39,091 nt of DNA from Magnetococcales bacterium. GTDB lineage: Bacteria; Pseudomonadota; Magnetococcia; Magnetococcales; JADGBX01. The stretch covers positions 1 to 39,091 of the forward strand of contig JADGBX010000012.1 in assembly GCA_015231265.1 (NCBI GenBank). The letters run 5' to 3'. Each line of letters starts with the position of its first letter. The first letter of the stretch is position 1. The translations under genes were made by a program, and so were the position numbers. A model generated the notes under the pieces. It was not told the origin of the DNA. It saw only the letters and a list, made by a program, of their open reading frames with translations, and did no database searches. This document shows positions 3,755-29,179 of the stretch, in pieces.

Positions 3755-4297
3755 TCAGAGTGTTCCGATTCGAGAGATCCACCATGCGCCATACGCCCAG
3801 GGTGTGCGGTGATCCACCGTCATCCAGAGTGTGGCGGGTCCGGTGTTGATGGTGGCGGAAGAATCTATCATCTTCAACCGGATCGCCCACGCTCCCGGTC
3901 TCTTCTCCCTGTTCAAATCACACCCTTCATCCATAGCCGGGGAGATCGACACGATCTGCACGGCCGGGAGGGGGGTGGCGTTGATTTGTGAGCTCTTCAA
4001 CGCAAGGTGTCCGCTTCGGCCCGGACGCAGTGCCTCCTGCATCGGTTTAGAGATCGGTGCCATCAGGCAAAGAGTGTTGCTCTCGGAGCCGAGCACTTCC
4101 CCCTCCAGCGTCTTCCGCACCGGAATCCGCACCGCTCCGTTCCAGATCCAGAGTGCCATCAGCGTGACGGCCAGCATCAGCCATGCCAGTCGTCTGCGCG
4201 GTGGGTAGAGCAGCTCCGGGGTTGAACTGTCGCCGTGAACACCGACGAACACCTCCACCGCCTGCGGGCGGAACAGGTTTTTTCGGCGTGGTTTCAT
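3755..4297 (-). CDS. Miniature HlyD-like membrane fusion protein without coiled coil
   Basis: This 180-residue protein has a basic cytoplasmic start, one membrane segment (about 36-53) and a short periplasmic beta-rich domain. Its C-terminus (TLWMTVDHRTPWAYGAWWISRIG) aligns by eye with the C-terminus of the full-length HlyD at 14339-15604 (ITVEEQSP...FLRKTVGIY), including the Ser/Thr-Pro and the R-x-G near the end. The long helical hairpin and lipoyl region that let a normal fusion protein (about 400 residues) reach the outer membrane are missing. Its ATG overlaps the stop of the fused transporter (ATGA at 4294-4297), so the two are translationally coupled and probably partners. It could be a reduced adaptor that docks onto the full-length HlyD, or a decay product held in frame. 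No database match was checked. Confidence 0.65.
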   Translation of the reverse strand: MKPRRKNLFRPQAVEVFVGVHGDSSTPELLYPPRRRLAWLMLAVTLMALWIWNGAVRIPVRKTLEGEVLGSESNTLCLMAPISKPMQEALRPGRSGHLALKSSQINATPLPAVQIVSISPAMDEGCDLNREKRPGAWAIRLKMIDSSATINTGPATLWMTVDHRTPWAYGAWWISRIGTL

Positions 4298-7200
4298 GGT
4301 GTCGTCTCCATGCGACTGCCGGCGGTGAACTCTGCCGGGGTTCCCGACCAGACGATACGGCCCGCCTCCATGGCGAAGACCTGGTCGGCTTCGGCGATGG
4401 CACTGGCTCTGTGGCTGACGACGATGCAGGCGATACCCAGATTCCTGAGATTGGCGAAGAGATCCGCCTGCATGGCCTCCGGCAGGGCGTTGGTGGCCTC
4501 ATCCAGGATCAGAAGTTTGGGTTTTCGAAGCAGGCGGCGGGCGATGAGCAGACGCTGTTTCTGGCCGGTGGAGACCCGCTCCGTATCGAGCAGGGTCTGA
4601 ATCCCCATGGGCATGGCATCGATATCCTGCTCCAGCATGGCCAACCGGGCCGCGTTACGAATTCTAGCCAGGGAGTGGGCGCTGTGACCGCCGATGTGGC
4701 CCCGGATCGACTGGGTGTGATCCAGTCGGTCATCCTGAAGCACGGCGCCCACCGTCTCACGCCAGGCGGCAAGATCGCAGGACGAATGGTCAAGACCATC
4801 GCGCAGGATCTCTCCGCCATCTGGTTGATAGAAACCCAACAACAGACGCAACAGCGTTGACTTGCCACTGCCGGACGGCCCGGTGAGGGTGATGATGCGT
4901 CCCGGTTCGAGCCGGAGTGAGAGATCGTCCAGGGCTGGGCGGCTGTGACCCGGATAGGTGAACGATAGATCGTGTAGCTCAAGGGGGGGGGGGTCGGGGG
5001 GGGGCGGTGGTTGCGTCTTTGGAAGCGGTTCGGTGGGGGCCTCGACCAGGGGGGTGAGGCGTTGCAGGATCGGGGCGCAGCGCCCGAGATCGTGCAGCCC
5101 CCGAGCAAGCCCCTTGAAAGGGAACAGCGCGCTCCAGAATCCCACAATCCCGAAGAGACGGTGTGTCGGCTCCAACTCCGGAAAGAGGGTGGCCAGCGTC
5201 ACGGAGAATCCACCCAGCGCCAACCATGGGTAGAGATCGATGAAAGCATCGGTCAACCGATCCATGTGTTGCAATCGATGCTCCAGTTTCAGAATCGATG
5301 TTTGTTTGCGTTGCCAGGCATCGAGGGCGGTATGGGCGCGGTCCATCTGCCGCAGACGGGGGGCACCCTTCAGAAGGTGATAGAGAAAGTAGACCGCATC
5401 CAACCGCTGATTGAGGAGATCGGGCATTCTGGATTCATGCCATCGGCTCAACAGCACAGGGAGCAGGATCAACGGCAGCACCCACCCCAGGGCGACCCCG
5501 GCTGATTCCGGTGAGACCAGAGCGATCATGGTCAGAACCGACACGCCCACCACGCCGTCCAGAAGATGCCTGAAAGTGCCGTGGCGGAGCTGTTCGAAGA
5601 GCTGCCGGATGGCGTGGAAACTGCGCGTGACCTGCTGCGGGCCGAGATCACTCAGGGTGAGCGGCTGGATACGCATTACATGGTGAAGAATGGCACTGGT
5701 GGCGGAACTCTCCAGCCGTCCATGAAGCCGATGCAGCGACACCAGACGCAACCACTCCCCCGTGCCAAGCATCATGAGCATAACCACGACGCCACCTGGC
5801 AGCAGATACCGGTAGGAGTCATCGGCAAAGGGTAGGATGGTGGTGAACAGCACGGTTCCGGCCAGTGGCAACGTGCACCAGGCAATCGCCACCATCAGTG
5901 TCGTCATGAGGGCTGAAAGAGTTTCCCGCAGGATACGTGTCGGGGCGTGGAGCAGGAACGTCCATGGCGAGCGCGGGCGGTTCGTGTCGCATCGCGGGTG
6001 GAGTGTGTAGAGACGATCCGACAGAGCCGGGGGGTGGCTTGCGTCAAGCCGGGTGCGGGAGCCGGTTCTCGGATCAACGATGACGTAGTCTCCCGTGAGA
6101 TTCGGAACGATCGCCACGGGCCGATGCCCATCCTCGGCACGGGTGAAGGCGAGGAGCGGTCCGTGATCCCGCCGCCACCAGCGACCGACCTGAAAACGCA
6201 CTGGGCGGATGGGGATACGGTTGTGTAGGGCCAAGGCGTAGAGTCCTCGTTCGTGCGCGTCCTCTCCCGAGTTCGGCAGAGGTGTGGGTAGCTCCTGGAT
6301 GTCAGTTGCACCGATGCTTTTTGCCACCAATCGGAATGCCGACAGCAACGCCTCTGTTTGGTCTTTCGGTGGTGGGGACGGCTTTGGTGGCGGCTCTTCG
6401 GAGCCGAAGGGGGTGTGTTCCTGAGTGGATGGCGATTGAGGGGTGATCGGTGTTGCATTTTCCGGCTCATGGACAAGTCGGCCCGCCACCAGATGCACGA
6501 TCCGGTCGCAGGCGGCCAGAGTGCTCTCTCGGTGGCTCACCATGATCAGGGTGATGCCGTGCTGTTTGAGGTTGTTTCGGAGCCGCTGTTCCAGCGGCTG
6601 ATCCAGCCCGTCGGTCGCCTCATCCAGCACCAGAATTTCCGGCTTGCCCAGCAGCACTCGGGCGATCTCCAGGCGTTGGCGCTGACCGCCGCTGAAGTTG
6701 GCGCCGTGGGGAGCGACCGGGGTGTCCAGTCCTTGGGGCAGGGCGGCGATGGTGTCGTCCAGACAGGCATCCCGGATGGCTCGGGCCAGATCCGCCTCGG
6801 TGAGATCCTCACGCCACAACAGCAGATTGATCCGCACACTGCCCGGCAGAAAGAGCGGCTGTTTATCCACCCAACCGATCTCCCGGTTTCGTTGTGCCCG
6901 GCTCATCTCCGTGAGCGGTCGTCCTCGGAACTGAACCTGACCGTGCCACGGCTGATGGAGTCCGACCAGCATCCTGGCCAGAGTCGATTTTCCACCTCCG
7001 GACGGGCCGGTCAGCCCGATCTGCTCACCGGGCCGGATGGTGAGGGAGATGTCGGAGAGCAGAGGGGGTTTGGCAGGGGTGAAACCGAACCGGAGACCGC
7101 TGGCGCTGAGAATCGGTTGGGATGCGTCCTCAAGGGGGCGTGGCGGGTTCCGGGTGGTATCCGGTTCCGGGATCTGGTCCCAGAGATCCTCCAGAGGGGG

Positions 7201-8565
7201 AAGCATCCGGTCGAGACGGTCCATGAGACCGTACAGCCCGGCCAGCCGCTGAATCGGCGCGTGCAGGGTGCCGATCAGGCAGAGCATGGAGAGGAGGGTT
7301 CCGATGCTCGGCCTGCCATCACTCAATCCGGCCTGAGCGATCATCAGAATGGCCCACCCACCCAGGATCGGCAGCAGAGCGGGCAGCAGTTGGGCGCCGG
7401 ATCGATAGATCCCGGCACTCTGGCGCCCCTTCAGACCGTTGGCAAAGGCGCCCATGGTGCCGATGAAGAACTCCGTCGTGCCGTTGCCGGTCTTGAAGAA
7501 CTCGAAATTCTCCATGGCAAAGGCCATTTTCGACCAGAGCAGATCGTCGTGCTGGAGGGTGGGGCGATGCTTCTCACCGCCGATCCGGTCGAGTCTCTTG
7601 AGCAGAATCAGGATCACCACCATCCCGATCAGAGCCACCGCACCCGTCATGGGGTGCAGAACGAGCAGCAGTACCATTGGCAGCAGTATGCCGACGGTAT
7701 TGAAGAGCGCAGGTAACAGCTCCTGAAAGAGGGTGTGGGCAATGGTCTCCTGGGCGTAGACACGGCTGTGCAGAATGGAGGGAATGCGATAGTGAAAGAA
7801 GCTCTCCGGCAGGGTGAGCATGTGCCGCACAAGCCCCGGCAGTGTGCGGCGGCGATTCTCGAAGGCAAGTCGTGCGAACAGCACCCGACCCGTCATCGAC
7901 AGCACTCCGTACAGCAGCACCATAACGACGGTGAGCGTCAGAAGTTGGGACGGGGAGAAGGGTTCCCAGAGGGTAGTGGTGGAGGTGCCGGTGAGCCACC
8001 GCTCCCCCAGCTCTCCCAACAGCAGGGCCGACACCAGCAGCGGAACGCTCTTCATACCCTCGCTCAGGGCGGCCAGTGCCAAGGGTGTGGATGGGGTATC
8101 GGCAAGGGTGCGGCGGATGCGCATCCAGCGGCTGACCGGGCGTCCACCCGGCTGGAAGGTGTCTCCCGGTTCGAAGACCAATGCAATTCCCGTGAACCCC
8201 TCGTTGAACCGCTCCAGCGGCATGCAGTAGCGCCCACAGGCAGGATCGTTGAGCCACACCCCGGCATCGTTGATTTGCTCCACCACGACGAAGTGGATGA
8301 AGTTCATGTGCACGAGCAGGGGCAAGCCCAGAGATTCCAGGGTCTCGGGTTCCCGGCGCAGAACGCGGGCGTTCAGGCCGTAGTGTTGGGCGACGCGGAG
8401 CAGATCGGCGGCGTTGGTGCAGTCGCGGTCGACACCGGAGATCCGGCGCAGAGCTTCCAGTGTCACATGGCGACCGTGGTGGGCGAGAATCATCGCCATG
8501 GCCGCCAGACCGCACTCAGTGGATTGAGTCTGGTAGCAGGTCGCGGGCGAGGGGGACGCCATCAC
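4294..8565 (-). CDS. Single-chain C39 peptidase / ABC / ABC bacteriocin-type exporter
   Basis: This 1423-residue protein reads as a C39-ABC half transporter fused to an NHLM-type ABC half transporter. Residues 1-135 are a C39 peptidase with Gln12 (oxyanion), Cys18, His91 and Asp107 intact, so it should cut leaders after GG. The first membrane domain spans about 155-450. NBD1 has Walker A GPSGGGKST (about 518-526), signature SGGQRQ (about 628), and DEATDGLD. Residues about 700-860 match the soluble region that precedes the membrane domain of the NHLM ATP-binding protein at 9142-12138. After a second membrane domain comes a Pro-rich linker and NBD2, with Walker A GPSGSGKST (about 1233), a degenerate signature STGQKQ and D-loop NALPE. 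Known C39 and NHLM transporters are two separate half-size chains. The start is GTG, or more likely the next codon ATG at 8562, which overlaps the upstream stop as TGATG. The linker is encoded by long homopolymers. Confidence 0.88.
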   Translation of the reverse strand: MMASPSPATCYQTQSTECGLAAMAMILAHHGRHVTLEALRRISGVDRDCTNAADLLRVAQHYGLNARVLRREPETLESLGLPLLVHMNFIHFVVVEQINDAGVWLNDPACGRYCMPLERFNEGFTGIALVFEPGDTFQPGGRPVSRWMRIRRTLADTPSTPLALAALSEGMKSVPLLVSALLLGELGERWLTGTSTTTLWEPFSPSQLLTLTVVMVLLYGVLSMTGRVLFARLAFENRRRTLPGLVRHMLTLPESFFHYRIPSILHSRVYAQETIAHTLFQELLPALFNTVGILLPMVLLLVLHPMTGAVALIGMVVILILLKRLDRIGGEKHRPTLQHDDLLWSKMAFAMENFEFFKTGNGTTEFFIGTMGAFANGLKGRQSAGIYRSGAQLLPALLPILGGWAILMIAQAGLSDGRPSIGTLLSMLCLIGTLHAPIQRLAGLYGLMDRLDRMLPPLEDLWDQIPEPDTTRNPPRPLEDASQPILSASGLRFGFTPAKPPLLSDISLTIRPGEQIGLTGPSGGGKSTLARMLVGLHQPWHGQVQFRGRPLTEMSRAQRNREIGWVDKQPLFLPGSVRINLLLWREDLTEADLARAIRDACLDDTIAALPQGLDTPVAPHGANFSGGQRQRLEIARVLLGKPEILVLDEATDGLDQPLEQRLRNNLKQHGITLIMVSHRESTLAACDRIVHLVAGRLVHEPENATPITPQSPSTQEHTPFGSEEPPPKPSPPPKDQTEALLSAFRLVAKSIGATDIQELPTPLPNSGEDAHERGLYALALHNRIPIRPVRFQVGRWWRRDHGPLLAFTRAEDGHRPVAIVPNLTGDYVIVDPRTGSRTRLDASHPPALSDRLYTLHPRCDTNRPRSPWTFLLHAPTRILRETLSALMTTLMVAIAWCTLPLAGTVLFTTILPFADDSYRYLLPGGVVVMLMMLGTGEWLRLVSLHRLHGRLESSATSAILHHVMRIQPLTLSDLGPQQVTRSFHAIRQLFEQLRHGTFRHLLDGVVGVSVLTMIALVSPESAGVALGWVLPLILLPVLLSRWHESRMPDLLNQRLDAVYFLYHLLKGAPRLRQMDRAHTALDAWQRKQTSILKLEHRLQHMDRLTDAFIDLYPWLALGGFSVTLATLFPELEPTHRLFGIVGFWSALFPFKGLARGLHDLGRCAPILQRLTPLVEAPTEPLPKTQPPPPPDPPPLELHDLSFTYPGHSRPALDDLSLRLEPGRIITLTGPSGSGKSTLLRLLLGFYQPDGGEILRDGLDHSSCDLAAWRETVGAVLQDDRLDHTQSIRGHIGGHSAHSLARIRNAARLAMLEQDIDAMPMGIQTLLDTERVSTGQKQRLLIARRLLRKPKLLILDEATNALPEAMQADLFANLRNLGIACIVVSHRASAIAEADQVFAMEAGRIVWSGTPAEFTAGSRMETTP
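4983..5004. other. G11 and G9 homopolymer tracts inside the fused transporter gene
   Basis: The plus strand has eleven G at 4983-4993, then TC, then nine G at 4996-5004. On the coding (minus) strand these are C tracts encoding the Pro-rich linker between the second membrane domain and NBD2. Tracts of this length are classical slipped-strand sites. Gain or loss of one base would shift the frame before NBD2. Confidence 0.85.
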
Positions 8566-9098
8566 CCCCGGCCCAGAATCCGCAACATCCGGTCGAAGCG
8601 ATCCCCGGCGATGGCGATGGTGTCGAGCAGATTCTCGTCCAGCTCGTCCTCCAGGATCTCATCGGAGTCGAGATCGGTCTCCTCGCCGTAGCCCATGCGC
8701 TTGACGGTGCCCCGCAGCCGATCGGCCAGAAAGACCGCCAGTGCTTTGTAGAACCGCCCCGCGAATCCCGGATCGGAGACGAAGCGCTGCTCCAGGTCCG
8801 ATTTGGCCATCTCCAGAACCTTGACATCGTCCAGGGTTGAAACGGTCGCGGAAGCGGGGGCACCATCGACGAACGACATCTCTCCCAGCATCTCACCCGA
8901 GCCGAGCCGGGCAACCTCGCCGATCCCCTCCACCGATACCTGCATGTGGCCTTCGAGCACGATGTAGACCATGTCCAAGTGGTCGCCTTCCCGGATGAGA
9001 TCGCTGCCCTGGGCAAGGGTCCGTGTCGTGCCGATCCGGGCCATCCACGACACATCCTCATCATTGAGCAGGCCGAATATGTAGAGTACCTTCCGCAT
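8562..9098 (-). CDS. Cyclic nucleotide-binding-domain protein of the export cluster
   Basis: This 178-residue protein has a single cNMP-binding beta-roll (about residues 10-125), with FVDGAPASATV as the phosphate-binding cassette region and GSGEMLGEMS just before it. A helical acidic tail follows (DLDSDEILEDELDENLLD). There is no helix-turn-helix, so it is not a CRP-type transcription factor. The Arg normally found in the cAMP-binding PBC (RxA) is replaced (APASA), so nucleotide binding is doubtful. A strong ribosome binding site (AGGGG) precedes the ATG, and its stop overlaps the start of the fused transporter. NHLM clusters often carry cNMP-like domains, and the 998-residue ABC protein has a similar N-terminus, so a structural or regulatory role in export is the likeliest reading. 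Confidence 0.82.
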   Translation of the reverse strand: MRKVLYIFGLLNDEDVSWMARIGTTRTLAQGSDLIREGDHLDMVYIVLEGHMQVSVEGIGEVARLGSGEMLGEMSFVDGAPASATVSTLDDVKVLEMAKSDLEQRFVSDPGFAGRFYKALAVFLADRLRGTVKRMGYGEETDLDSDEILEDELDENLLDTIAIAGDRFDRMLRILGRG

Positions 9099-9141: not shown

Positions 9142-12138
9142 TCAATCGGAGCGGGAGACCATCTGACGTTTTGCCAGTTCTGCGAATGGGCCGTTGTTGG
9201 CCATGAGTGTGTCATAATCGCCGCTCTCGACGATCCGACCCTTTTCCACCACCAGAATTCGATCAGCATGGACGATGGTGCTGAGGCGGTGGGCGATCAC
9301 CACCCGGGTGATGTCCAGACTCTTGACGCTCTCCATCACCACGGCCTGGGTGGTGTTGTCCAGGGCGCTGGTTGCCTCGTCCAGCAGCAGAATCGCCGGT
9401 CGGTTGGCCAGGGCTTTGGCCAGCAGCAGCCGTTGACGCTGACCGCCCGAGAGGGTGCCGCCCCCCTCCTGCAACACGGTATGGAGTCCCATGGGCATGG
9501 CGGCGATATCTTCGGCCAACCCCACCTGACGGGCGATGTGCATCACCTGTTCGTGGTCCATGGATTCGGAACCGGCGATGTTGTTGAAGAGCGAACCGGA
9601 GGCGATGCGCCCATTCTGCAGAACCACACCGATCTGACGGCGCAGTCCGTCCGGGTCGATGCTGCCCAGGGGCGTGCCGTCGAAGAACACCTCCCCCTGT
9701 TCCGGCGTGTCGAACCCCAGCATCAGCCGCATGATGGTCGATTTGCCGCTGCCCGACCCACCGACGATGGCCACCATCTCCCCCGGTTCGATGGTCAGTG
9801 AGAGACCATCCAGTACGGGCGGGCCGTGAGCAGTGTAGCGGAATGCCACCGAGTTGAAGCTGATCCCCCCTTTGAGGCGACCCGGTGGATGCCGGAGCGG
9901 GCTGGTTTCCGGTTCGGCATCCAGAATCGGGCGGAATCGTTCATAGAGCGGAACCACGGCCAGCGCTTCGGTTACGGCCAGGGTCATGCCGGTCATGGCC
10001 TGGATGAACTGCCCGAAGGCGGCGTTGAAGGCGAGAAAGGAGCCGGTGGAGAAGGGTTCCGGTGGTCCGTCTCCGCTGCCGGTGAGATCGGGGGAGGCGT
10101 TGGTCAGAGCGTGGAGTCGCATGTCGTCGGTGGCGCTGTCCAACACCCAGATCACGCCGATGAAGATCAGCAGATTGGCCATCAGCGGCACCGTGGCGTG
10201 GAACAGCTCCTGGACGTTGGCGTAGCGCTGGGCGGCGACAAAGCGCGCCTTCTGTTGCCGGTAGCGGTCGGCCCAGGTTCCCAGAGCGCGTGATTGTGCT
10301 CCGGCGGCGCGCAGTTTGCCGATGCCGACGATGTACTGCAAAACCAACCCCTCCACCTCGCCCTGGTGGCGGATGTGCTCCCGCTCGTAGTGGAGTTGCT
10401 TGATGGCCAGAAGCGCGGTGATGGTGAGCACCGTCAGGACGATGGCGATCCCGATCAGCGCCAGTTGCCAACTGTAGTAGAACATCAGTCCCAGGCTGAC
10501 GAAGGAGAAGAGAAAGGCGAACAGGGCCGTGGTTACGGTTCTGGAGAGGGTCTCGCGGATGGTCTGAATGCCTAGGGTGCGGTCGGCCAGATCCCCCGAT
10601 GTAAAGCGACGAAAGAAGGCGGCAGGCAGCCTCAGCAGTCGGTCGAACACCGCCGCCTGGAGGTTCCAGTCGGCCCGGCCCTCCAGCCGCAGCATGGCGA
10701 ACCCCTTGGCCGCTTCGAACCCGGCGGCTCCGAACGCCGCCACCACAAGGGCTGCGATCAACTGGCCGTGTTGAAAGAGATCGGAACCGGGAATGATCTT
10801 CTCGATCAAAAGGCCGGTGGCCACCGGAGTCAGCAGTCCCAGCAGCGCCACCGCCACCCCCAGAATCATCATGCGCAGGGCGTCGGAGCCGCTCCCCTTC
10901 AAGGTGAATCCCAGCACGCCCAGGAAGGATGGTGGATGGTGGGGCAGGGGACGGTAGAGAGTCAGCGCTTTGGGATCAATCTCGCGGGCACTGGTGTCGT
11001 CGATGATGTGCCGACTGCCTTGGCTCGGATCGACGGCCACATAGCCGCCCCGTTTGCTGTCCGGCAGCAGGGCGAGGGGCGTGCCATCCGTGGTGTAGCC
11101 CAGCAGCGGCCCGTTCTCGCGTCGAAACCAGTCGTCCCGCAGCAGCACCCAACGACTGCGCAGACGGGAGGTCTGCATGATCTCTTCCAGATCGGGTTTC
11201 CGGGTGTGGACCGGCAAGGTGATGGTCTCACCCAGGGCGTCGGCCACCAGGCGACAGGTATCCACCAACGGGGTCTCCCGCCGGGGTGAAACAACCTCGC
11301 TCGGTTGATCGGGCCGGACCGTCTCGGCCAGGCCGGTCAGACCGTGGGAGAGCTGTTCCGAGTCCTGTCGCCAGCGGCTCTGCAAGCGGCGGTGGCGCTC
11401 CTGGATGCGGTGAGCCAGAAACCCACCCAGCCGATTGGCGGCGATGGCGCAGAATCCCTCCACCGCTTCCCATAACCTGTCCGAGTGGAGCAGATCCTTG
11501 CTGCTCTCGACCGTGAGCGAGGTTGGTTGGTCCCGTAGAGGTTCCAGCCAGCTCTCGGCGGACATAGGACGCAGGCCCGGTTCCGCCTCGGCACCCAGAA
11601 AGGCGGCCTGACCGCGCTCTACACGACACCAGAACAGCCCCCGAGCCGGGCCGGCCAGGCGGAGTCCGGGGTTCAGGGTGATGGTCCCGTCAGCAGGGGT
11701 GGCCCGTTCCGAATAGGTGAGATCGAGGGGATTCTGAGCCGCTGTCAGGGCCAGGATCCAGCGCTCCACCAGATCAACGGTCACCTGGGGAGGCAACAAC
11801 TCCAAGGTGTGCGGATCATGCACCAGCAGAAGCTCCACATCGAGACCGCCACTGAGGATCACCCGCGCCGTACCATTCTGGGTCGGAACTGGCGGTAGTG
11901 GCGTCAGCAACCCCCCGGCCTCGACCTGAAACAGCAGGTGGCGGCGTCCTACATCCGACTCGTCCTCTCCGACCGATTCACGGGCAAAGAGATTGACCGA
12001 TCCACGCAGGACGATGGCCACGCATCCCGTTTGGTTCAGATCGAACACGGTATCACCACCGAGATCCAGACGCTGGATCCGGTCACCATCCACTCGTGTA
12101 AGGAGGGGGTCGAGTCGTGCATGCAGCGGTGTGGTCAT
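9142..12138 (-). CDS. NHLM-type export ABC transporter, ATP-binding protein with N-terminal beta-roll domain
   Basis: This 998-residue protein matches the architecture of the NHLM bacteriocin system ABC protein (TIGR03797-like). It starts with a cNMP-like beta-roll (about 20-150), has a long soluble region (150-420) containing the GPLLGYTTDG...GYVAVDPSQGSR segment, then six membrane helices (about 430-720). A complete NBD ends the protein, with GGSGSGKST, LSGGQRQR, LLLDEATSALD and the H-loop IAHRLS. There is no C39 peptidase, so it presumably pairs with the peptidase-containing half transporter encoded 26 bp upstream to form a heterodimer that exports mature peptides across the inner membrane. 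Length and motifs look intact. The soluble region recurs, shortened, in the middle of the 1423-residue fused transporter. Confidence 0.92.
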   Translation of the reverse strand: MTTPLHARLDPLLTRVDGDRIQRLDLGGDTVFDLNQTGCVAIVLRGSVNLFARESVGEDESDVGRRHLLFQVEAGGLLTPLPPVPTQNGTARVILSGGLDVELLLVHDPHTLELLPPQVTVDLVERWILALTAAQNPLDLTYSERATPADGTITLNPGLRLAGPARGLFWCRVERGQAAFLGAEAEPGLRPMSAESWLEPLRDQPTSLTVESSKDLLHSDRLWEAVEGFCAIAANRLGGFLAHRIQERHRRLQSRWRQDSEQLSHGLTGLAETVRPDQPSEVVSPRRETPLVDTCRLVADALGETITLPVHTRKPDLEEIMQTSRLRSRWVLLRDDWFRRENGPLLGYTTDGTPLALLPDSKRGGYVAVDPSQGSRHIIDDTSAREIDPKALTLYRPLPHHPPSFLGVLGFTLKGSGSDALRMMILGVAVALLGLLTPVATGLLIEKIIPGSDLFQHGQLIAALVVAAFGAAGFEAAKGFAMLRLEGRADWNLQAAVFDRLLRLPAAFFRRFTSGDLADRTLGIQTIRETLSRTVTTALFAFLFSFVSLGLMFYYSWQLALIGIAIVLTVLTITALLAIKQLHYEREHIRHQGEVEGLVLQYIVGIGKLRAAGAQSRALGTWADRYRQQKARFVAAQRYANVQELFHATVPLMANLLIFIGVIWVLDSATDDMRLHALTNASPDLTGSGDGPPEPFSTGSFLAFNAAFGQFIQAMTGMTLAVTEALAVVPLYERFRPILDAEPETSPLRHPPGRLKGGISFNSVAFRYTAHGPPVLDGLSLTIEPGEMVAIVGGSGSGKSTIMRLMLGFDTPEQGEVFFDGTPLGSIDPDGLRRQIGVVLQNGRIASGSLFNNIAGSESMDHEQVMHIARQVGLAEDIAAMPMGLHTVLQEGGGTLSGGQRQRLLLAKALANRPAILLLDEATSALDNTTQAVVMESVKSLDITRVVIAHRLSTIVHADRILVVEKGRIVESGDYDTLMANNGPFAELAKRQMVSRSD

Positions 12139-12164: not shown

Positions 12165-14342
12165 CTACAGAGAAGTGACCAGCGTGGTATACGCGCCCTC
12201 TTTGGCCATCAGTTCCTCATGGCGTCCCCGCTCGACGATCCGACCCTTGTCGAGCACGATGATCTCATCGCAATCTCGGATGGTGGAGAGCCGGTGGGCG
12301 ATGATCACGCAGGCCATGCCGCGCGTGCGGATTGCGCTATCAATCCGCTGTTCCGTCACCGGGTCCAGCGCCGCTGTCGCCTCATCCAAGATCAACACCG
12401 CCGGATGGTTGGCCAGCGCTCGGGCGATCTCCAACCGTTGTCGCTCGCCACCGCTGAAGTTCATGCCCCCCTCTTCCACATGGCACTCCAACGCCTTGAA
12501 CCGCCGACTCACCACATCCAGAACCTGGGCATCGGCCAGGGCTTTGGTGAGTACGTCATCGGGAACGGTGGCGTCCCAGAGGGTGAGATTGTTGCGTAGC
12601 GTTCCTTCGAACAGAAACAGATCCTGATCCACATACCCCACCGACGCCGTCAGTAGCCGGGGCGGAATCTCGGTGATGGGGCGGCCATCCAGCAGAATCT
12701 CGCCCGCGTCCGGCTCCAGCAGGCGGCACATCAGCCGCCCAAGGGTGGACTTGCCACTGCCCGACCCACCCACCAGAGCGATTCGGGTGCCCGGTTTCAG
12801 CGAGATGGAGCAGTCACGGATCAAAGGGGGGGCCAGCGGACTGTATCCGAAGGTGACGTCACGCAGCTCCAGGTGGCCGTGAACGTGGGCAATCCCCGCC
12901 TGGTCCGTGCTCCGGTCATCGGTCGGGATGTCGGGTACGGGGTAGTTGAAAACATCCGACAACCGGGTGAGAAGACCTTTGATGGTCTGGAGATCCCCGG
13001 CCAGGGCCACCAGCAGCGTGATGGGCGCGGCGAACCCGGCCATCAGGGTCTGGAACGCCACCAGATCGCCGATGGTCAGCGCTCCCTCCATCACCCGCAG
13101 CCCGCCGATTCCCAGCACTGCCACGTTGCTCAACGCCGTCAGCAGCAGGGGAATCACCGTCAGCCGGACCGTCTGGGTGCCCAGCTCCTGTTGCGACAAC
13201 AGGCTTGATGCCTGATACCCGGCCCAGCGTCCGAAGAGCGTGTCACCGGAGCCGGAGGACTTGACGGTCTCGATGGAGCGGATGCCACCGACGGTGGTCC
13301 CGCTCAGCTTGCCGAGATCATTGAGCAGACGACTACTCAGATCGGTACGCCGACGCCCCATGCGCCGCACTGCAATGGCGTTCAAGGAGACCAGAACCCA
13401 GCCGGTGGCGCCCAGTATCGGGTCGTAGAGCAGCATCAGCAGCCCGAAGAAGAGCACCGAGATCAGATTGAACAGATTGGTTGCCAGTTGGCCGGAGAGG
13501 AGTTGGGCGATGCGCTCCCCGGCGGCGATCCGGGTAGCCACGTCCCCGGCCTGGCGCTGGCTGAAGAAGCTCATGGGCAGCCGCAATACCTGCTCCAGAA
13601 ACCGGCTGGAGAGGGAGACCGCCAGCTTGGTCTCCAGTCGCAGCAGATAGCGCTGTTGCAGCGCCGTCAGCACCCCTCGGACCAGCAGAGTCAGGCCCAT
13701 GCCGAGACAGAGCGGACGGAACCACTCCTCTTGCTGACCAATGAGAATGTCATCGACGAAGATCTTGGAGAAGAGCGGCACCAGAATTCCCGGCACCACC
13801 AGCAGCAGGCTCACCAATGCCACGAACGCCACCGCCATCCGCGAGTGGCGCAGATGGGCGGCCAGCTCCCGCCAGAGCGAGGGGGGGTGTCCGGCCCGCT
13901 CGAACGACTCCCCCGGTTCCAGGGCGATGACGATGCCGGTGAAGCTCTCCTCCATCTCCTCCAGGGAGACGGTGCGGGGGCCGCTGATGGGGTCGTTGAG
14001 GCAGGCACGCCCCTTGTGGAACCCCTCGAAGACGAGAAAATGGTTGAAGTTCCAGTGGAGAATCGAGGGGGTCGGCAGGGGTGCCAGTTTGTGGATTTCG
14101 TTCTTTTTGAAAGCTTTGGCCGAGAGACCGTAGCGTCGGGCGGCTTTGAGGATATTGGTCGCTTTGCTGCCGTCTCGGGAGACGCCGCAGGCCACCCGCA
14201 ACTCCTCCAGCGATACCCAACGCTTGTGGTGGGCCAGCACGATGGCCAGGGAGGCCGCACCGCACTCCACCGCCTCCATCTGGAGGATGGTCGGCGTCCG
14301 GGTCCGTTTGGCCGTCTTCACGCGGTGTTGGCCGATCTTCAC
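12165..14342 (-). CDS. NHLM-type export ABC transporter with C39 leader peptidase
   Basis: This 725-residue protein has the classical C39-ABC half-transporter layout (TIGR03796-like). The N-terminal C39 peptidase has ILQMEAVECG, giving oxyanion Gln21 and nucleophile Cys27, with His101 (NHFLVF) and Asp117 (LNDP). The membrane domain spans about 160-450. The NBD has GGSGSGKST, FSGGERQRLEIARAL, LILDEATAALD and H-loop IAHRLS. It should remove Nif11-type leaders after the double Gly and translocate the core. The start is GTG, overlapping the stop of the upstream HlyD gene (GTGA, 14339-14342), so translation is coupled. No damage is visible. It is the second intact C39 peptidase in the cluster, beside the one in the fused transporter. 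Confidence 0.93.
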   Translation of the reverse strand: MKIGQHRVKTAKRTRTPTILQMEAVECGAASLAIVLAHHKRWVSLEELRVACGVSRDGSKATNILKAARRYGLSAKAFKKNEIHKLAPLPTPSILHWNFNHFLVFEGFHKGRACLNDPISGPRTVSLEEMEESFTGIVIALEPGESFERAGHPPSLWRELAAHLRHSRMAVAFVALVSLLLVVPGILVPLFSKIFVDDILIGQQEEWFRPLCLGMGLTLLVRGVLTALQQRYLLRLETKLAVSLSSRFLEQVLRLPMSFFSQRQAGDVATRIAAGERIAQLLSGQLATNLFNLISVLFFGLLMLLYDPILGATGWVLVSLNAIAVRRMGRRRTDLSSRLLNDLGKLSGTTVGGIRSIETVKSSGSGDTLFGRWAGYQASSLLSQQELGTQTVRLTVIPLLLTALSNVAVLGIGGLRVMEGALTIGDLVAFQTLMAGFAAPITLLVALAGDLQTIKGLLTRLSDVFNYPVPDIPTDDRSTDQAGIAHVHGHLELRDVTFGYSPLAPPLIRDCSISLKPGTRIALVGGSGSGKSTLGRLMCRLLEPDAGEILLDGRPITEIPPRLLTASVGYVDQDLFLFEGTLRNNLTLWDATVPDDVLTKALADAQVLDVVSRRFKALECHVEEGGMNFSGGERQRLEIARALANHPAVLILDEATAALDPVTEQRIDSAIRTRGMACVIIAHRLSTIRDCDEIIVLDKGRIVERGRHEELMAKEGAYTTLVTSL

Positions 14343-15604
14343 TGGTAGATTCCGACGGTTTTGCGCAGGAACGGAATGAACAGCGAGGCAGGGCTCTGCT
14401 CCTCCACCGTGATCTCGGCGTTGAGGGTGGTGCCGCTGGCCAGTCGGATGGGCGGACCTTGCCGCGAACTCCAGCGATAGCCGCTGACTGCCCGTTCATC
14501 GGCAATCAGATCGACATGCACCGCATACGGCGGCCCTTCACTGGAGAAGACGCCGACCAGAGCCGGATTCTGTAGAACCGAGGTCATCCCTCGGGGCGTC
14601 ACGGGAAATTCCGACACCTCCCGTACCGTACCGAGCAGGGAGCCGAACTCCTCCTTCTTGATGGTAGCCGGTTCGATCCGCACCGACTGGCCGGGGTGGA
14701 GCTTCTTGCCGTCGGCGGTGGGGGCGTAGAGCAGCGCCTGGAGTTCACCACCGGTCCGCTCGATGCTCACCACCGCTTCACCCGCCTGCACCATCGCCCC
14801 CGGACCCACCTTGTACTCGATCACCCGTCCATCGATGGGTGCGACGATGGCTCCATCCCGAGCCAGGGCCTTGCGGTGGCGTTCCACCTGGCGCTGGGCG
14901 TCGTTCAGATCCTGTTCCAGCCGCGAGCGCTCCTGTTCGTGGTGCAGCTCCAGGTCCAGCTGTTCCGCCTGGATGGTGAGAATCTCATACCGTTTGTCGG
15001 CCAGATTCTGCCGGGCATCGCTCAGATCGACTCGGGTCGATTCGTGGGCCTTGCGGGCGACGATTCCCTTTTTGACCTGCTTCTCCTGGGCGCTGACCAG
15101 TTTGCTCAGGTAGGCGATGTGTCGGGTGATCTCGGCGATGGACTGCTTCAGGGCGGCGGTTCTTTTCGTGTAGAGGCCCGATTTGAGGTTCCGTTCCCGG
15201 CGGAACTCCGCTTCTCTCCGCTTGATGATCGCCTGTTTCTCTCGCACCACGTCGCGGGCATCCCGCAGATGTTCCGACACTTCGGCCTGATCGATGACCG
15301 CCACCGTCTGACCTTTTTTGACATCGGCATAGAGCGAGACGGAGAACTCCACAAGCACGCCCGGAGCCTGGGCCATGGCATCCGCCACATGTCCGAAGCG
15401 ACTCAGGATGATGCCCTGACTCTTCACCGTGGTGGGAATGGCGCCATAGACGCTCCAGACCCCCAGGAACCCCAGTAGACCGGCTACCGTCAACGCCACC
15501 ACCCAGCCACGGGCATCGGTCACCGACACCAGCCGGTCGAGCTGGTCGGGGGAGGCAAGGCGGTCGAGTGCGGCTTGTCGGAAGAGCTGTTTGTGTGCCT
15601 GCAT
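14339..15604 (-). CDS. NHLM-type HlyD membrane fusion protein
   Basis: This 421-residue protein has one membrane segment near the N-terminus (about 50-72). A first beta/lipoyl half contains LVEFSVSLYADVKKGQTVAVID, a long alpha-helical hairpin spans about 110-240 (rich in Glu/Arg/Lys/Gln heptads), and the second lipoyl half contains GAIVAPIDGRVIEYKVGPGAMVQAGEAVVSIE. A beta-barrel domain and a short C-terminal tail complete it. It would bridge the inner-membrane ABC pair to the outer membrane or act as periplasmic adaptor (TIGR03794-like, NHLM secretion protein). GGAG lies 4-5 bases before the ATG. It is 31 bp downstream of the radical SAM gene and overlaps the C39-ABC gene. Confidence 0.92.
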   Translation of the reverse strand: MQAHKQLFRQAALDRLASPDQLDRLVSVTDARGWVVALTVAGLLGFLGVWSVYGAIPTTVKSQGIILSRFGHVADAMAQAPGVLVEFSVSLYADVKKGQTVAVIDQAEVSEHLRDARDVVREKQAIIKRREAEFRRERNLKSGLYTKRTAALKQSIAEITRHIAYLSKLVSAQEKQVKKGIVARKAHESTRVDLSDARQNLADKRYEILTIQAEQLDLELHHEQERSRLEQDLNDAQRQVERHRKALARDGAIVAPIDGRVIEYKVGPGAMVQAGEAVVSIERTGGELQALLYAPTADGKKLHPGQSVRIEPATIKKEEFGSLLGTVREVSEFPVTPRGMTSVLQNPALVGVFSSEGPPYAVHVDLIADERAVSGYRWSSRQGPPIRLASGTTLNAEITVEEQSPASLFIPFLRKTVGIYQ

Positions 15605-15635: not shown

Positions 15636-16985
15636 TCAAACAGGCAACAATCCGGATGAGTACGGGTGCAGCCTTTTGTTGATCATGGTTGCCGAATAGC
15701 GTTGGTTGAAATGGTTGGAGGGCACATGTTCATACCCGGAGAGCGTCAAGGCTGTGCTGCGGGCTCGAATCTTGTCGCCGGCATACAGCTCGGAGAACAC
15801 CTGCCAGAACAGATCGTTCAACCGCTGCGGATTCAGTTGTTTTGGTGAAAAGACCACATGGTTGAGATCATATAGGGACCAGTCGGTATGCAAAAGGCGT
15901 CCCTGTTTGTTCATATCTTCAAAGAGTTGTGTGCCGGGCAGCGGTGTCAGCAGCCACAGAATGGGATTGACGGTGGGATGTTTCGAGAAGAAGCGGGCGG
16001 TTTCGAGGATGCTCTCCTCCTCATCCTGATCGAAGCCGAGAATCATGCTGGCGATGCCGAGGATACCGTTCTCGGTCAGTGCCCGGAACAGATCGTCATA
16101 GCGATCGACGCTGTTGAACCCCTTGCCGGATGCGGTCAACACCTCTTGGGAGAGAGACTCCACCCCGATGAATAGTGAATAACACCCGGCCTTGCGGGCC
16201 CGTTCCAACAGCTCCCGTTTGCGATGAATCCGTGTGGTGCACTGGGACATCCAACGAATCGTTTTCTTGCTGTTTGAAGCCACTGCCTGAAACAGCTCCC
16301 GAGCATAGGCGGGTTGGATATCTATGGTGTCATCGACGAAGAAGAAGGTGTCGGCGTTGGGCAGGGCGTTGATCTCGTCCAGCACGTGCTCGATGGGCTT
16401 GGTGCGGAACCCTTTGTCAAAGAATTCCGTGACCGAACAGAAATCGCACCCCAGCGGACAGCCCCGCGTCGTGTAGATCGGCAGCATCGGCAGGCCGGTG
16501 TTGTTGATCATGTAGTGGGAGAAGTCGAAGCCGCTCCAGTCCGGGATCACGGGCCGATTCAAGTCGGGCAGGGAATCGGCTCGATAGGTGGGGTGGAGGC
16601 GGTTCTGCTCGGCGTCGTCTAGAACGGTTTCCCACAGCTCCTCCGCCTCGCCCAGCACTACGCTGTCGGCGTGTTTGCCCGCCTCTTCCGGCAGGAAGGT
16701 GGCATGCACCCCGCCGATCACCACCCGCACCCCACGGGCCCGGAAGGCATCGGCGATCTGATAGGCGCGACCGATCTGACAGGTCATGGCGGTAATGCCC
16801 ACCAGATCTACCGGCTGCTCATAGTCGATGGTCTCCACCACATCGTTGAGAATGCGTACTCGATGCTGCTTGGGCGTCAGTGCATGCAGAATGGCCAGCG
16901 ACAAGGGGGGGAGGTAGGCTTTGCGGAACTTCCGGGGGGTGCCCCGTTCATCCAGGGTGGTGGGGTAGATCAAGAGAATATTCAC
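15636..16985 (-). CDS. B12-binding-fold radical SAM protein, candidate peptide maturase
   Basis: This 449-residue protein has an N-terminal Rossmann-like B12-binding-type domain (1-140; PPLSLAILHAL, GGVHATFLPEEA, LGEAEE), but I see no DxHxxG cobalamin ligand. The radical SAM core has Cys176-x3-Cys180-x2-Cys183 (TTRGCPLGCDFC), which holds the [4Fe-4S] cluster, plus SAM-barrel features VDDTIDI and GVESLSQEVL. There is no SPASM-type Cys cluster near the C-terminus. The sequence resembles the BchE/HpnJ-like broad family, so chemistry cannot be read from it. Its place between the precursor genes and the export genes, all on one strand, argues that it modifies the cores, though a lipid or cofactor role cannot be excluded. 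The start codon is GTG with only a weak upstream ribosome binding site. Confidence 0.85.
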   Translation of the reverse strand: MNILLIYPTTLDERGTPRKFRKAYLPPLSLAILHALTPKQHRVRILNDVVETIDYEQPVDLVGITAMTCQIGRAYQIADAFRARGVRVVIGGVHATFLPEEAGKHADSVVLGEAEELWETVLDDAEQNRLHPTYRADSLPDLNRPVIPDWSGFDFSHYMINNTGLPMLPIYTTRGCPLGCDFCSVTEFFDKGFRTKPIEHVLDEINALPNADTFFFVDDTIDIQPAYARELFQAVASNSKKTIRWMSQCTTRIHRKRELLERARKAGCYSLFIGVESLSQEVLTASGKGFNSVDRYDDLFRALTENGILGIASMILGFDQDEEESILETARFFSKHPTVNPILWLLTPLPGTQLFEDMNKQGRLLHTDWSLYDLNHVVFSPKQLNPQRLNDLFWQVFSELYAGDKIRARSTALTLSGYEHVPSNHFNQRYSATMINKRLHPYSSGLLPV

Positions 16986-17109: not shown

Positions 17110-17400
17110 CTAGCTGACAGAAGTTGGGGTCTCATCTTTTTCTGTGGTTACGGCTCCACCAGCGACCAGTTCCAGCTCCGCCTCGGTCAACTCATCCTCA
17201 CCGGCAGAGAGCTGGATCAGAGAGGCGATCTCTTTCAACGCAGAATGCGCTTCGTCTTCAGTCAAGGGAGTGCCCTGTTCCTCGGCGATGCTGCGGGCCT
17301 TCTGTACGAATGCCTCTGGCTCCTGAATGGAGGAGAGTTGGGCGATGAGTCCGTCATCGGAGCGGATGCGGCTGTAGAGGTCCACCAGTTTCTGGTCCAC
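17110..17400 (-). CDS. Nif11-like RiPP precursor peptide A
   Basis: This 96-residue precursor is predicted from the GTG at 17400. The open frame extends 26 codons upstream to another GTG, but homology with the second precursor begins exactly here (VDQKLVDLYS against MEQKLVDLYS), and a possible promoter overlaps the longer start, so the short form is preferred. The helical, acidic leader ends in ELTEAELELVAGG, the Nif11-like double-Gly cleavage site at residues 81-82. The predicted core is 14 residues: AVTTEKDETPTSVS. It has no Cys, five Thr/Ser beyond the leader and one Lys. Leader and DNA are very similar to precursor B, so the two are a recent duplication in which the cores have diverged. 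Confidence 0.85.
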   Translation of the reverse strand: MDQKLVDLYSRIRSDDGLIAQLSSIQEPEAFVQKARSIAEEQGTPLTEDEAHSALKEIASLIQLSAGEDELTEAELELVAGGAVTTEKDETPTSVS

Positions 17401-17485
17401 ATTTTGCTTTCTGTATGATTCAACGTTCACCCCGACCGTCAACGCGGCAGCCGGTTGTGTGATGCGATACGTTAACACCGTACAG

Positions 17486-17611: not shown

Positions 17612-17905
17612 TTAGCTCTTGACGTTCTTATCCAACACAGAGCCGCACTCTCCTACTGCTCCACCAGCGACAAGCTCCAACTCCGCCTCGGTCAACTCAT
17701 CCTCACCTGCAGAGGCCTGGATCAAGGCGGCGATCTCTTTCAAAGCGGTCCGGGTTTCCTCTTTGGTCAGGGGTGTGCCCTGTTCCTCGGCAATGGTGCG
17801 GGCCTGACGTACGAACTCTTCCGGCTCCTGAATGGAGGAGAGTTGGGCGATGAGCCCTTCATCCGTGCGGATGCGGCTGTAGAGGTCCACCAGCTTCTGT
17901 TCCAT
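17612..17905 (-). CDS. Nif11-like RiPP precursor peptide B
   Basis: This 97-residue precursor starts at an ATG preceded by a GAGAG stretch. Its 82-residue leader, nearly the same as that of precursor A, ends ELTEAELELVAGG. The predicted core is 15 residues: AVGECGSVLDKNVKS, with a single Cys, two Lys and two Ser. One Cys cannot form an intramolecular disulfide, and no lanthionine synthetase gene is present, so Cys or Lys are the likely modification points. The leader should be recognised by the radical SAM and/or GNAT enzymes and removed by a C39 peptidase. The stop codon lies next to a fragment resembling the end of a MITE found elsewhere in the window, so the C-terminal residues of the core may have been altered by an insertion. 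Confidence 0.88.
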   Translation of the reverse strand: MEQKLVDLYSRIRTDEGLIAQLSSIQEPEEFVRQARTIAEEQGTPLTKEETRTALKEIAALIQASAGEDELTEAELELVAGGAVGECGSVLDKNVKS

Positions 17906-18049: not shown

Positions 18050-18352
18050 TCATTGTGAATTCTCCCCTTCAGGAAATTCAAATTCCGTCTTTTTCGTAGA
18101 GGCGACCCCTCCTGAAACCATCTCCAACTCAAAGTCGCTCAACTCATCATTCTCGGAAGCGCCTTGAATCAGTTCTGCCATATTGTTGATCGCATCGGCA
18201 ATTTCTTGTTTCGTCAGGGAGACACCATGTTGCGTTGCAATCGAAATCACTTCCTTGCCCAATTCGGTCGGATCTTCGATGGTGGCCAGGTTGGAGAGCA
18301 GGTCTCCGTCATCTCTTATGGCGGCGTAAAGCTGTACGATTTTATTGTCCAT
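18050..18352 (-). CDS. Nif11-like RiPP precursor peptide C
   Basis: This 100-residue precursor starts at ATG 18352. Its leader has diverged from A and B (MDNKIVQLYAAIRDDGDLLSNL; GASENDELSDFELEMVSGG) but is again exactly 82 residues to the double Gly, which supports all three starts. The predicted core is 18 residues: VASTKKTEFEFPEGENSQ. It contains a Lys pair, one Pro, two Phe and four acidic residues, with no Cys. The three cores share only small N-terminal residues (AV/VA) and a Lys. It is the precursor closest to the GNAT gene (178 bp), with the same transcription direction. Confidence 0.87.
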   Translation of the reverse strand: MDNKIVQLYAAIRDDGDLLSNLATIEDPTELGKEVISIATQHGVSLTKQEIADAINNMAELIQGASENDELSDFELEMVSGGVASTKKTEFEFPEGENSQ

Positions 18353-18530: not shown

Positions 18531-19613
18531 TCAAGAGCGCAGAGTCGTCGCATTCAGCGCCTTTCGTGAGCCCCACCTGGGGTCGATGGAGAAGGCAAAC
18601 GTGCTGACCCGCTCATCCATTAACCGGCGCATGGCGGGATTATCCCCCACGGTCTCATACCAGGAGGTGGTCTCCGGCCCCATCAAGGCACTCTGCCGGT
18701 GGCCGGTCTCCAGCATGCCGCCGATCAGCCAGCCCCGGTTACGCAGGGCGGGTTTGACGTATCCGGTGTGGTAGAGCACGCCCTCGACCTGATCGATCTC
18801 TTCGCCGATGATCCACCCCACCAGTTCGCCACGACGGCGGATGGCAAACGAGAGATCCGGTACGCAGTGCTGGTCGAACGCCTGTCTCGGGGCCAGCAAC
18901 GTCTCGACTTCGCCAATGACCACCAGCGCTTCAATGGCGCTGTTATCCTCGGCGGTGCGTTCCAGCCAGGGCGTGGTCTCGAAGCCGTGGCGACGCAGGA
19001 AGGGCATCAGTTTCGGCCAGGTCTGCTCCGCCTTCAGATACCAGTTTGCGGGACCGCTCAGGCGTTGAGAGTGGAGTTGGGGTGCCTCCCAGCCGCAGTG
19101 TTCCAGGAGGCTTTCCAGGGCCTGTTTCTGTTTGGTCTTGCCGGAGTACTGCACGGTCAGACAGCGACTGCCCTGTTCAAAGGCCACCTGTTCGGCCGCT
19201 TTGAGAAGATCCCGGCCCAATCCCCTTCTTCGCCACTGCTTGTGGATGAAGAGACTGAGCAGGCGACGGTGATCTCTCTTTGCGTGATCGTCTGCCGCAT
19301 CATCTTCTGGTGCAGGGGACGCTGGCGGTTGCTGGTATTGGTGATAGCGTTCCAGTGTGATGGGGTCGAAGAAGGGGGTCTGGGTAAAGGGCCGCCCCAT
19401 CAACGCCAACCCAATCGGAATACTTCCCGCCATCATGCCCACCGCCTTCACGTCGCGTTCGCCATATTTCGGCTCGGTCAGATAGGGGCGGAAGCGGGGA
19501 AAGGTCAAACTCGTGAAACGCGGATCGGGAAGTGCCAGGGTTTGAATGGTCACCGGCAACGTATCGAGCAGGCCGATCAGTGGGTTGGATTGTCTCTCTC
19601 TGTTCCGGTTCAC
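18531..19613 (-). CDS. Tandem GNAT acyltransferase-like protein, candidate RiPP maturase
   Basis: This 360-residue protein contains an N-terminal GNAT domain with a good acyl-CoA motif A (LSLFIHKQWRRRGLGRDLLKAAEQ, about residues 117-140) and a C-terminal half that also looks GNAT-like (LSFAIRRRGELVGWIIGEE; HTGYVKPALRNRGWLIGGMLE, about 255-310), with a less regular acyl-CoA loop. The start is GTG; a stop lies ten codons upstream, so little extension is possible. It precedes three Nif11-like precursors on the same strand. GNAT maturases are known from selidamide-type RiPPs, where a fatty acyl group is placed on Lys or Orn of a Nif11/NHLP-type precursor. By analogy this enzyme may acylate the Lys of the cores. 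A housekeeping acetyltransferase next to the cluster by chance is the alternative. Confidence 0.8.
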   Translation of the reverse strand: MNRNRERQSNPLIGLLDTLPVTIQTLALPDPRFTSLTFPRFRPYLTEPKYGERDVKAVGMMAGSIPIGLALMGRPFTQTPFFDPITLERYHQYQQPPASPAPEDDAADDHAKRDHRRLLSLFIHKQWRRRGLGRDLLKAAEQVAFEQGSRCLTVQYSGKTKQKQALESLLEHCGWEAPQLHSQRLSGPANWYLKAEQTWPKLMPFLRRHGFETTPWLERTAEDNSAIEALVVIGEVETLLAPRQAFDQHCVPDLSFAIRRRGELVGWIIGEEIDQVEGVLYHTGYVKPALRNRGWLIGGMLETGHRQSALMGPETTSWYETVGDNPAMRRLMDERVSTFAFSIDPRWGSRKALNATTLRS

Positions 19614-19790: not shown

Positions 19791-20840
19791 ATGCAACCTC
19801 TGGAACACTCCTATTTCACAACCTCCCATCTGAAACAGTCCACCCAGTTCGACGCGTGGCGGGACAGTATTGGCGTCATGTTCGATGTGCGACTGGATAC
19901 CGCATCGGAAGATTCCGGTTTCCACGCTCTTACTGACAGTTATCTGTTGGACTCCATGATGCTTACCCGCTGTGCCGCAGGCCGGCAGAAGTTCGACCGC
20001 AAGAGCGTGCGCATCGCCCGGGACGGCATCGATCACTACATGATCCAACTCTTCGTCAAAGGGCGGGTGGAGATGCGTGTGGCTGGCAAGCAAATGGTCG
20101 GTCCCACCCGCTCCATCGTCGGCTTCGATCTGGGGGATACCCTGGACAGTGTCAACACCGATTTCGATCTGCTGAGTGCGTTTATTCCCCGCCGGGAGCT
20201 GGCCCCGCTGCTGCGCTATCCGGACAATGTGCCCGGTACCATGGTCGACACGGCACAGGGGGAGGGCAAGCTGCTGGCAGACTTTATGGAGGCGGTGTTC
20301 CGGGCCGCGCCGACGCTCTCCCGTGATGCTGGCCCTTCGGTGGCATCCAGTCTGATCCATATGGTGGCAGCGGCGTTGAACCGCTCCCTGGAGGTGTTGG
20401 AGGATGCCCCCACGGCGTTGATGCAGTCCCATCTGATCCGGGCCAGGCAGTTCATCGAGGATAACCTGGATCGGGAGGATCTCACGCCAGCGTTGCTTGC
20501 GCAGCATCTCGGTGTTTCGCGAGCCACACTCTATCGCACCTTTGAGTCCCATGGTGGCGTTGCCCAGTTCATTCGCCGCCGCCGGTTGAACAGAGCTCTG
20601 AAGCATCTGGTTGCACCACCGCCCGGCATCCTGAAACAGCGCATCTCCGACATCGCTTTCAGCACCGGTTTTAACGACTCCGCCCAGTTCAGCCGCCTGT
20701 TTCGCAACGCGTTCGGTATCTCGCCCAGCGAAGCACGCCATCAAGCGGATCGGATGTCATCAGCAGACCAGCGGCGAACCTTCCTCAATGACGGCATCAG
20801 CGACACGCTCTATGAACAGTGGATTGCCAGAGTTCTTTAA
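19791..20840 (+). CDS. AraC-family transcriptional regulator
   Basis: This 349-residue protein has an N-terminal AraC-binding-like domain (about 1-200, of the AraC_binding_2 type: FDAWRDSIG, DHYMIQLFVKGR, VGFDLGDTLDS) and a C-terminal double helix-turn-helix (about 220-320). The latter contains LTPALLAQHLGVSRATLYRTFE, then ISDIAFSTGFNDSAQFSRLFRNAFGISPSEAR, the family signature. It is divergent from the RiPP cluster and separated from the GNAT gene by 177 bp, so it is the natural candidate for cluster control, possibly sensing a small molecule or the peptide product. Its own promoter appears FNR-dependent, which would tie the cluster to oxygen availability. The link to the cluster is inference from position. 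Confidence 0.92.
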   Translation: MQPLEHSYFTTSHLKQSTQFDAWRDSIGVMFDVRLDTASEDSGFHALTDSYLLDSMMLTRCAAGRQKFDRKSVRIARDGIDHYMIQLFVKGRVEMRVAGKQMVGPTRSIVGFDLGDTLDSVNTDFDLLSAFIPRRELAPLLRYPDNVPGTMVDTAQGEGKLLADFMEAVFRAAPTLSRDAGPSVASSLIHMVAAALNRSLEVLEDAPTALMQSHLIRARQFIEDNLDREDLTPALLAQHLGVSRATLYRTFESHGGVAQFIRRRRLNRALKHLVAPPPGILKQRISDIAFSTGFNDSAQFSRLFRNAFGISPSEARHQADRMSSADQRRTFLNDGISDTLYEQWIARVL

Positions 20841-29032: not shown

Positions 29033-29179
29033 GTGTCTTAAAGATAACGACCACCTCAATACTTCGGCAACTGGTGTTCATTCATCGATCACTCTATCCT
29101 TGGTCGACAATTCACCATGGTGTGGCCGGTAAGGAGATATGCTCCATCCACCCATCCCATCGGCTTGGGGAGAGTAGAT

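Follow-up and report, generated by a model that had tools for sequence, protein, structure and literature searches.

Gene Content of the Locus

The window analysed here is a stretch of 39,091 nucleotides, contig JADGBX010000012.1 of a Magnetococcales bacterium (assembly GCA_015231265.1). An NHLM-type cluster lies on one of its strands, with the genes transcribed in the following order:

18050–18352, minus strand: Nif11-leader precursor, leader end ELEMVSGG
17612–17905, minus strand: Nif11-leader precursor, leader end ELELVAGG
17110–17478, minus strand: Nif11-leader precursor, leader end ELELVAGG
15636–16985, minus strand: B12-binding radical SAM protein (domain scans)
14339–15604, minus strand: NHLM HlyD-type adaptor (TIGR03794, 288 bits)
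12165–14342, minus strand: canonical NHLM ABC1 with C39 domain (TIGR03796, 993 bits)
9142–12138, minus strand: canonical NHLM ABC2 (TIGR03797, 841 bits)
8562–9098, minus strand: cyclic-nucleotide-binding protein of the TIGR03896 type, overlapping the start of the fused gene (GTGA)
4294–8565, minus strand: fused exporter of 1423 residues, C39-TMD-NBD-linker-soluble domain-TMD-NBD
3755–4297, minus strand: hairpin-less adaptor-like protein of 180 residues, overlapping the stop of the fused gene (ATGA)

Both overlaps of the fused gene are 4 bases long, and we infer that the fusion is co-expressed with the operon. The unfused pair described for the cluster in the preliminary description is indeed intact, and both its ABC1 and its ABC2 score above the curated cut-offs of their families (853.3 bits for TIGR03796 and 709.4 bits for TIGR03797). 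The presence of a complete canonical exporter in the same operon favours a reading in which this pair exports the finished product and the fusion is a self-protection or peptide-sensing transporter, its peptidase and asymmetric ATP sites acting in immunity or regulation, a reading which we consider unlikely. The cyclic-nucleotide-binding gene is no hint of regulation by way of the fusion, because it follows ABC2 also in clusters that have no fusion, such as that of Azospirillum oryzae; it is found 3' of ABC2 as well in the second fusion-bearing genome (G035, see below), and is part of the canonical cluster. The fusion of G035 was expected directly after the canonical cluster too, and this was rejected: the ABC1, ABC2 and cyclic-nucleotide-binding genes are followed there by the gene of a radical SAM protein. 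The G035 copies of the fusion and of the small adaptor-like gene lie on two other contigs, apart from each other.

The three precursors are in tandem and carry GG motifs, followed by short and different cores of 14, 15 and about 18 residues. A GNAT-domain protein (18531–19613, minus strand) is encoded just 5' of them, and a divergent AraC-type regulator on the plus strand (19791–20840); an AraC-like frame was also seen 3' of ABC2 in another locus (L011). Further along the plus strand lies a 2647-residue hybrid sensor kinase (21089–29032) with PAS, HisKA, receiver and Hpt domains as well as four solute-binding stretches (SBP_bac_3), and two proteins (29117–30793, plus strand; 31751–33895, minus strand) show, by eye, a caspase-like N-terminus and a C-terminus like the formylglycine-generating enzyme. 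A second NHLM set of ABC1, ABC2 and cyclic-nucleotide-binding genes, cut by a contig end, is present elsewhere in the same genome (L058, G000:C129).

Frame and Domain Layout of the Fused Exporter

The frame consists of 1423 codons, begins with a GTG followed at once by an ATG, and has no internal stop, in such a way that the C39 peptidase and both ABC halves lie in a single chain, exactly as previously described. The following parts were assigned, all of them on the minus strand:

8161–8538: C39 peptidase domain, residues 10–135 (Pfam Peptidase_C39, E 1.2e-32)
7231–8088: TMD1, about residues 160–445 (hydropathy; TIGR03796 match 9–699)
6472–7125: NBD1, about residues 481–698 (Walker A K526, Q-loop position K568, FSGGQ, E649, H678)
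6862–6864: codon of K568, replacing the Q-loop Gln (motif comparison)
6355–6471: Pro-rich linker, the fusion junction, residues 699–737 (alignment to the second copy)
5956–6354: ABC2-type soluble domain, about residues 738–870 (TIGR03797 match from 738)
5026–5955: TMD2, about residues 871–1180 (hydropathy; TIGR03797 match)
4324–4983: NBD2, about residues 1195–1414 (Walker A K1235, Q1277, signature STGQ, E1356, D-loop NALP)

Two ABC_tran domains were detected with Pfam, whose membrane-domain model missed TMD1 and matched TMD2 weakly; by hydropathy, about five membrane segments were found in each half of the fusion, and likewise in the ABC1 and ABC2 of the window itself. The TMD-NBD-TMD-NBD succession in one chain is that of a single-chain full ABC exporter. 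At its N-terminus the C39 triad named in the preliminary description (Cys18, His91, Asp107) is complete and is accompanied by the oxyanion Gln12, as in PCATs, and the whole chain has one C39 domain, instead of the two per transporter of PCATs, if it acts alone. A stop missed between about 6300 and 6450 had been put forward as a possible source of error, and none is present at the junction, where the Pro-rich linker is encoded instead.

Family Identity of the Two Halves

When each half was scanned separately, residues 1–700 matched TIGR03796 (NHLM_micro_ABC1) with 504.6 bits, the next family scoring 226.6, and residues 731–1423 matched TIGR03797 (NHLM_micro_ABC2) with 368.8 bits, with 179.7 for the next one. 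The C half of the fusion from the second genome reached 370.2 bits against TIGR03797, and the whole fused protein of the window 679.6 bits with TIGR03796 and 591.5 with TIGR03797. All these values of the window fusion, per half and as a whole protein, are under the curated cut-offs, and because of this it is filed in neither equivalog family. The C half matched positions 2–672 of the 686 of TIGR03797, so that the match spans practically the entire model and takes in the soluble domain of the peptidase-less partner that had been proposed to be kept in the fusion.

In a tree of the ABC1 family, the ABC2 family and four outgroup exporters, the N halves grouped with ABC1, apart from the four outgroup exporters, and the C halves with ABC2, with support of 100/100 in each case. 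In each family clade the two fusions are sister to one another, on stems of similar length (1.49 and 1.56). The best families and the tree thus place the halves in different families, which makes the protein an ABC1+ABC2 fusion rather than a tandem duplicate of a single half, and together with the same fusion in a second genome they bear out the proposal that counterparts of the two NHLM half transporters are joined here.

A Second Copy and the Reality of the Junction

A second fusion was found in Magnetococcales isolate nHA5abin3, on contig JADFZF010000285.1 (3170 bases), which covers residues 391–1417. It is 51% identical to the window fusion over residues 410–1379, in a single frame, and the alignment is free of gaps from residue 410 to 809, the junction at 699–737 included. 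Identity is lowest in the linker (28%), about 40% in the TMD stretches, and 65% and 70% in NBD1 and NBD2, and in every domain it is the third codon positions that differ most. The C39 domain is not seen in this copy because it is incomplete at its 5' end, and a frameshift follows after about residue 1379, near the end of the contig. The title of the contig states a coverage of 2.3, and the frameshift is therefore likely a sequencing error, although it may also reflect decay.

The window comes from a draft assembly of 459 contigs that is 80% complete, which leaves room for an artefact in which the stop or frameshift between two neighbouring genes disappeared during assembly, an extremely improbable origin for this frame. 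The fusion is real and not an assembly slip, because a relative from a separate genome, at 51% protein identity, runs through the same junction in one frame and without gaps. In addition, the stand-alone ABC2 carries about 290 extra N-terminal residues which are absent from the fused C half, a difference that also speaks against joined neighbouring genes.

Rarity

The fusion was found in 2 of the 48 genomes of the order Magnetococcales, and no further one was detected in a phylum sample of 299 genomes searched with the fusion as query, scoring the best two candidates per genome. In two class samples (369 + 385 = 754 genomes), none of the 50 places with an ABC1-family gene, counted as TIGR03796 matches at E <= 1e-180, was fused (frame >1135 codons); a fusion as divergent as this one falls under that threshold, so the count concerns ordinary ABC1 genes. 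Separate ABC1 and ABC2 genes are present in each of five annotated NHLM loci on plasmids (Bacteroidota, Cyanobacteriota, Alphaproteobacteria), and a scan of 84,980 species genomes with strict patterns returned the nHA5abin3 contig as its sole fusion match. The proposal that the architecture is unusual thus stands within the samples searched, where the suggested search for other proteins with the C39-ABC-soluble domain-ABC order gave one further fusion, that of nHA5abin3, the C39 end of which lies outside its contig.

Several candidates were discarded. The long frames at other ABC2 genes (G206, 1729 codons; G059, 1389) are read-through 5' of the real start in GC-rich DNA, and the distant loci L037–L041 consist of separate genes. 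Scans of viral contigs turned up nothing related to the fusion or to ABC1; a 1270-codon frame on an IMG/VR contig (L087:2554–6363, plus strand), which aligns to the ABC parts of both halves, is a single-chain ABC exporter of another kind. Among the ABC1 relatives, that of locus L067 (G059; 9159–11690, minus strand) carries Ser where the catalytic Cys of C39 would be and lacks the His from its usual position, and is probably a peptidase-dead member judging from these residues. Frames of 1071–1098 codons, in which about 310–350 residues precede an ABC1-like exporter, were observed in several genomes of the order (L048, L049, L050, L052).

Altered Motifs Converge on One ATP Site

The Q-loop position of NBD1 is Lys (K568) in both fusions and Gln in all 12 ABC1 homologues compared. 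In NBD2, both fusions have a V/I-STGQ signature instead of LSGGQ, with two residues lost ahead of it, and the D-loop reads NALP versus S-A/S-LD; none of the 12 ABC2 homologues compared, which have SGG and ..LD, shows either the signature or the D-loop, and among the loci compared STGQ and NALP are confined to copies of the two fusions. The window copy keeps the C39 residues, the Walker A lysines, the Walker B Glu of each NBD and the two H-loops.

In ABC exporters, one composite ATP site lies where the Q-loop of NBD1 meets the signature motif and D-loop of NBD2. The altered motifs K568, STGQ and NALP all fall on this one site, that of NBD1, while the other is canonical, built from the Walker A/B motifs and Q-loop (Q1277) of NBD2 with the FSGGQ and D-loop of NBD1. 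The protein therefore has the one non-canonical and one canonical site of asymmetric ABC exporters, with Walker B Glu649 retained at the degenerate site, and from its sequence it looks like an exporter with one ATP site weakened. Such a degenerate site also speaks for the self-protection or sensing role considered above; against it weigh the retained C39 catalytic residues, for which a pump devoted to immunity alone would have no use.

The non-canonical Q-loop, signature and D-loop could alternatively mark a decaying, redundant and non-functional copy that is losing its motifs, as could the long stem branches in the tree, the failure of Pfam to recognise TMD1 and the frameshift of the nHA5abin3 copy. 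We regard this as quite improbable, since identical motif changes occur in two proteins that are only 51% identical, NBD1 and NBD2 are better conserved than the TMDs, third codon positions differ most, and the C39 residues, Walker motifs and H-loops of the window copy are intact; the frameshift, in turn, is near the end of a contig of very low coverage.

Several changes that are spread over two NBDs and meet at a single site are as expected from pairing of NBD1 with NBD2 in cis. Since homologous half transporters are encoded beside it, the fusion might pair in trans, with itself or with ABC1 or ABC2, and so be one concatenated part of a bigger or mixed exporter instead of a self-contained unit. 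This arrangement is very unlikely, given that the changes of both NBDs meet as if the NBDs of the same chain faced each other, and that the shared stems of the halves are about equally long, consistent with joint divergence. Of the covalent heterodimer that had been proposed, the fusion of the halves is thus established, and action in cis has indirect backing, through the degenerate motifs on one composite site.

Structure prediction of the single chain, another suggestion of the preliminary description, was carried out with AlphaFold2 on residues 160–1359 and gave a low-confidence model (mean pLDDT 61, pTM 0.34). With Foldseek, it matched BSEP, P-gp and Ste6 over its whole length (E about 1e-31, TM about 0.4). 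The model supports the fold class of a full-length exporter, and not the packing; with such weak values it does not show cis packing.

A Hairpin-Less Adaptor-Like Protein

The 180-residue protein encoded after the fusion aligned with NHLM adaptors over residues 6–94 (hhalign E 3.5e-8, probability 95%), sharing with the TIGR03794 adaptors, of HlyD type, the N-terminal segment, the TM helix and the first strand. It lacks the lipoyl/coiled-coil hairpin towards TolC, with 180 residues versus 421 and a part of about 200 residues missing, and a helical hairpin was absent both from the alignment and from a low-confidence model, which has one TM helix followed by strands. The structure search with this model returned nothing significant (best E 0.017), so the adaptor-like assignment rests on the sequence profile of residues 6–94. 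Across the 48 Magnetococcales genomes, its sole good match (E 1.5e-14) belongs to G035, the other fusion-bearing genome, on another contig than the fusion. Because both occur together in the same 2 of 48 genomes, this suggests that the fusion and the small protein work together. The absence of a hairpin long enough for contact with the outer-membrane channel also counts for the self-protection or sensing reading.

Comparison with Known Systems

The closest system is the NHLM/NHLP pair of TIGR03796 and TIGR03797 with TIGR03794 (Haft et al. 2010, PMC2887384), which has the same domain content and order per half, one C39 domain per pair and Nif11-leader precursors in the cluster, as is the case with the fusion. 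The pair consists of two separate proteins in every other cluster examined, and the fusion also differs from the pairs compared in its scores under the cut-offs, in lacking the N-terminal extension of ABC2 and in its degenerate ATP site.

The first half, aligned over residues 12–700, resembles the C39-TMD-NBD exporters PCAT1, ComA and LahT (PDB 4ry2, 8hf4; PMC6363468, PMC6959990), and by analogy with these PCATs cleavage of double-Gly leaders would be expected. Passages of PMC6959990 describe two peptidase domains per PCAT transporter, whereas the fusion has a single peptidase and both halves in one chain. The best full-length Foldseek matches, P-gp/ABCB1, BSEP/ABCB11 and Ste6, share the TMD-NBD-TMD-NBD order in one chain, but have neither a C39 domain nor an ABC2-type soluble domain between the halves, and carry other substrates. 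BmrCD and MsRv1273c/72c (PMC12038006) combine, like the fusion, one non-canonical and one canonical composite ATP site, although they are made of two chains and have no peptidase. The usual hallmark of a degenerate site is given, in passages of PMC7544095, as loss of the Walker B Glu; in the fusion, by contrast, Glu649 is kept and the Q-loop, signature and D-loop are altered.

Discussion

Our data point, with fair likelihood, to a single-chain NHLM exporter of heterodimer type with a built-in peptidase, serving the Nif11-leader peptides of the cluster. The fusion is a rare variant of the NHLM pair that probably works as a cis exporter unit. It would have arisen by ancestral in-frame joining of an NHLM ABC1 (C39-TMD-NBD) with an NHLM ABC2 (soluble domain-TMD-NBD). 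The lone C39 domain would cut the double-Gly, Nif11-type leader of the modified peptides of the cluster, both TMDs would make one translocation path inside the single chain, NBD1 and NBD2 would pair in cis to give one normal and one degenerate ATP site, and the 180-residue hairpin-less adaptor would probably serve the fusion. We infer the cis pairing, the export and its direction, the peptide carried and the partnership with the adaptor; likewise, the fusion would fix the stoichiometry, as had been anticipated.

A more speculative extension, to which we give modest odds at best, is that the fusion together with the hairpin-less adaptor makes up a second, minimal machine for export, unplugged from TolC, through which peptides would be matured and delivered to the periplasm for signalling or self-protection, with the canonical pair exporting from the cell.

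No direct test of an NHLM ABC1/ABC2 heterodimer was found in the literature searched, and the case for it seems to come from gene neighbourhood. The natural covalent joining of ABC1 to ABC2 is genetic evidence for the pairing, and it offers a form encoded by one gene, with fixed stoichiometry, for structural and biochemical studies. According to a remark on the ABC proteins of Bacillus subtilis (PMC11466899), NBD fusion is fairly uncommon among prokaryotes, and the fused-NBD proteins of that species have degenerate sites as well. The degeneracy on one site of the fusion suggests that tethering two halves may free one site to decay.
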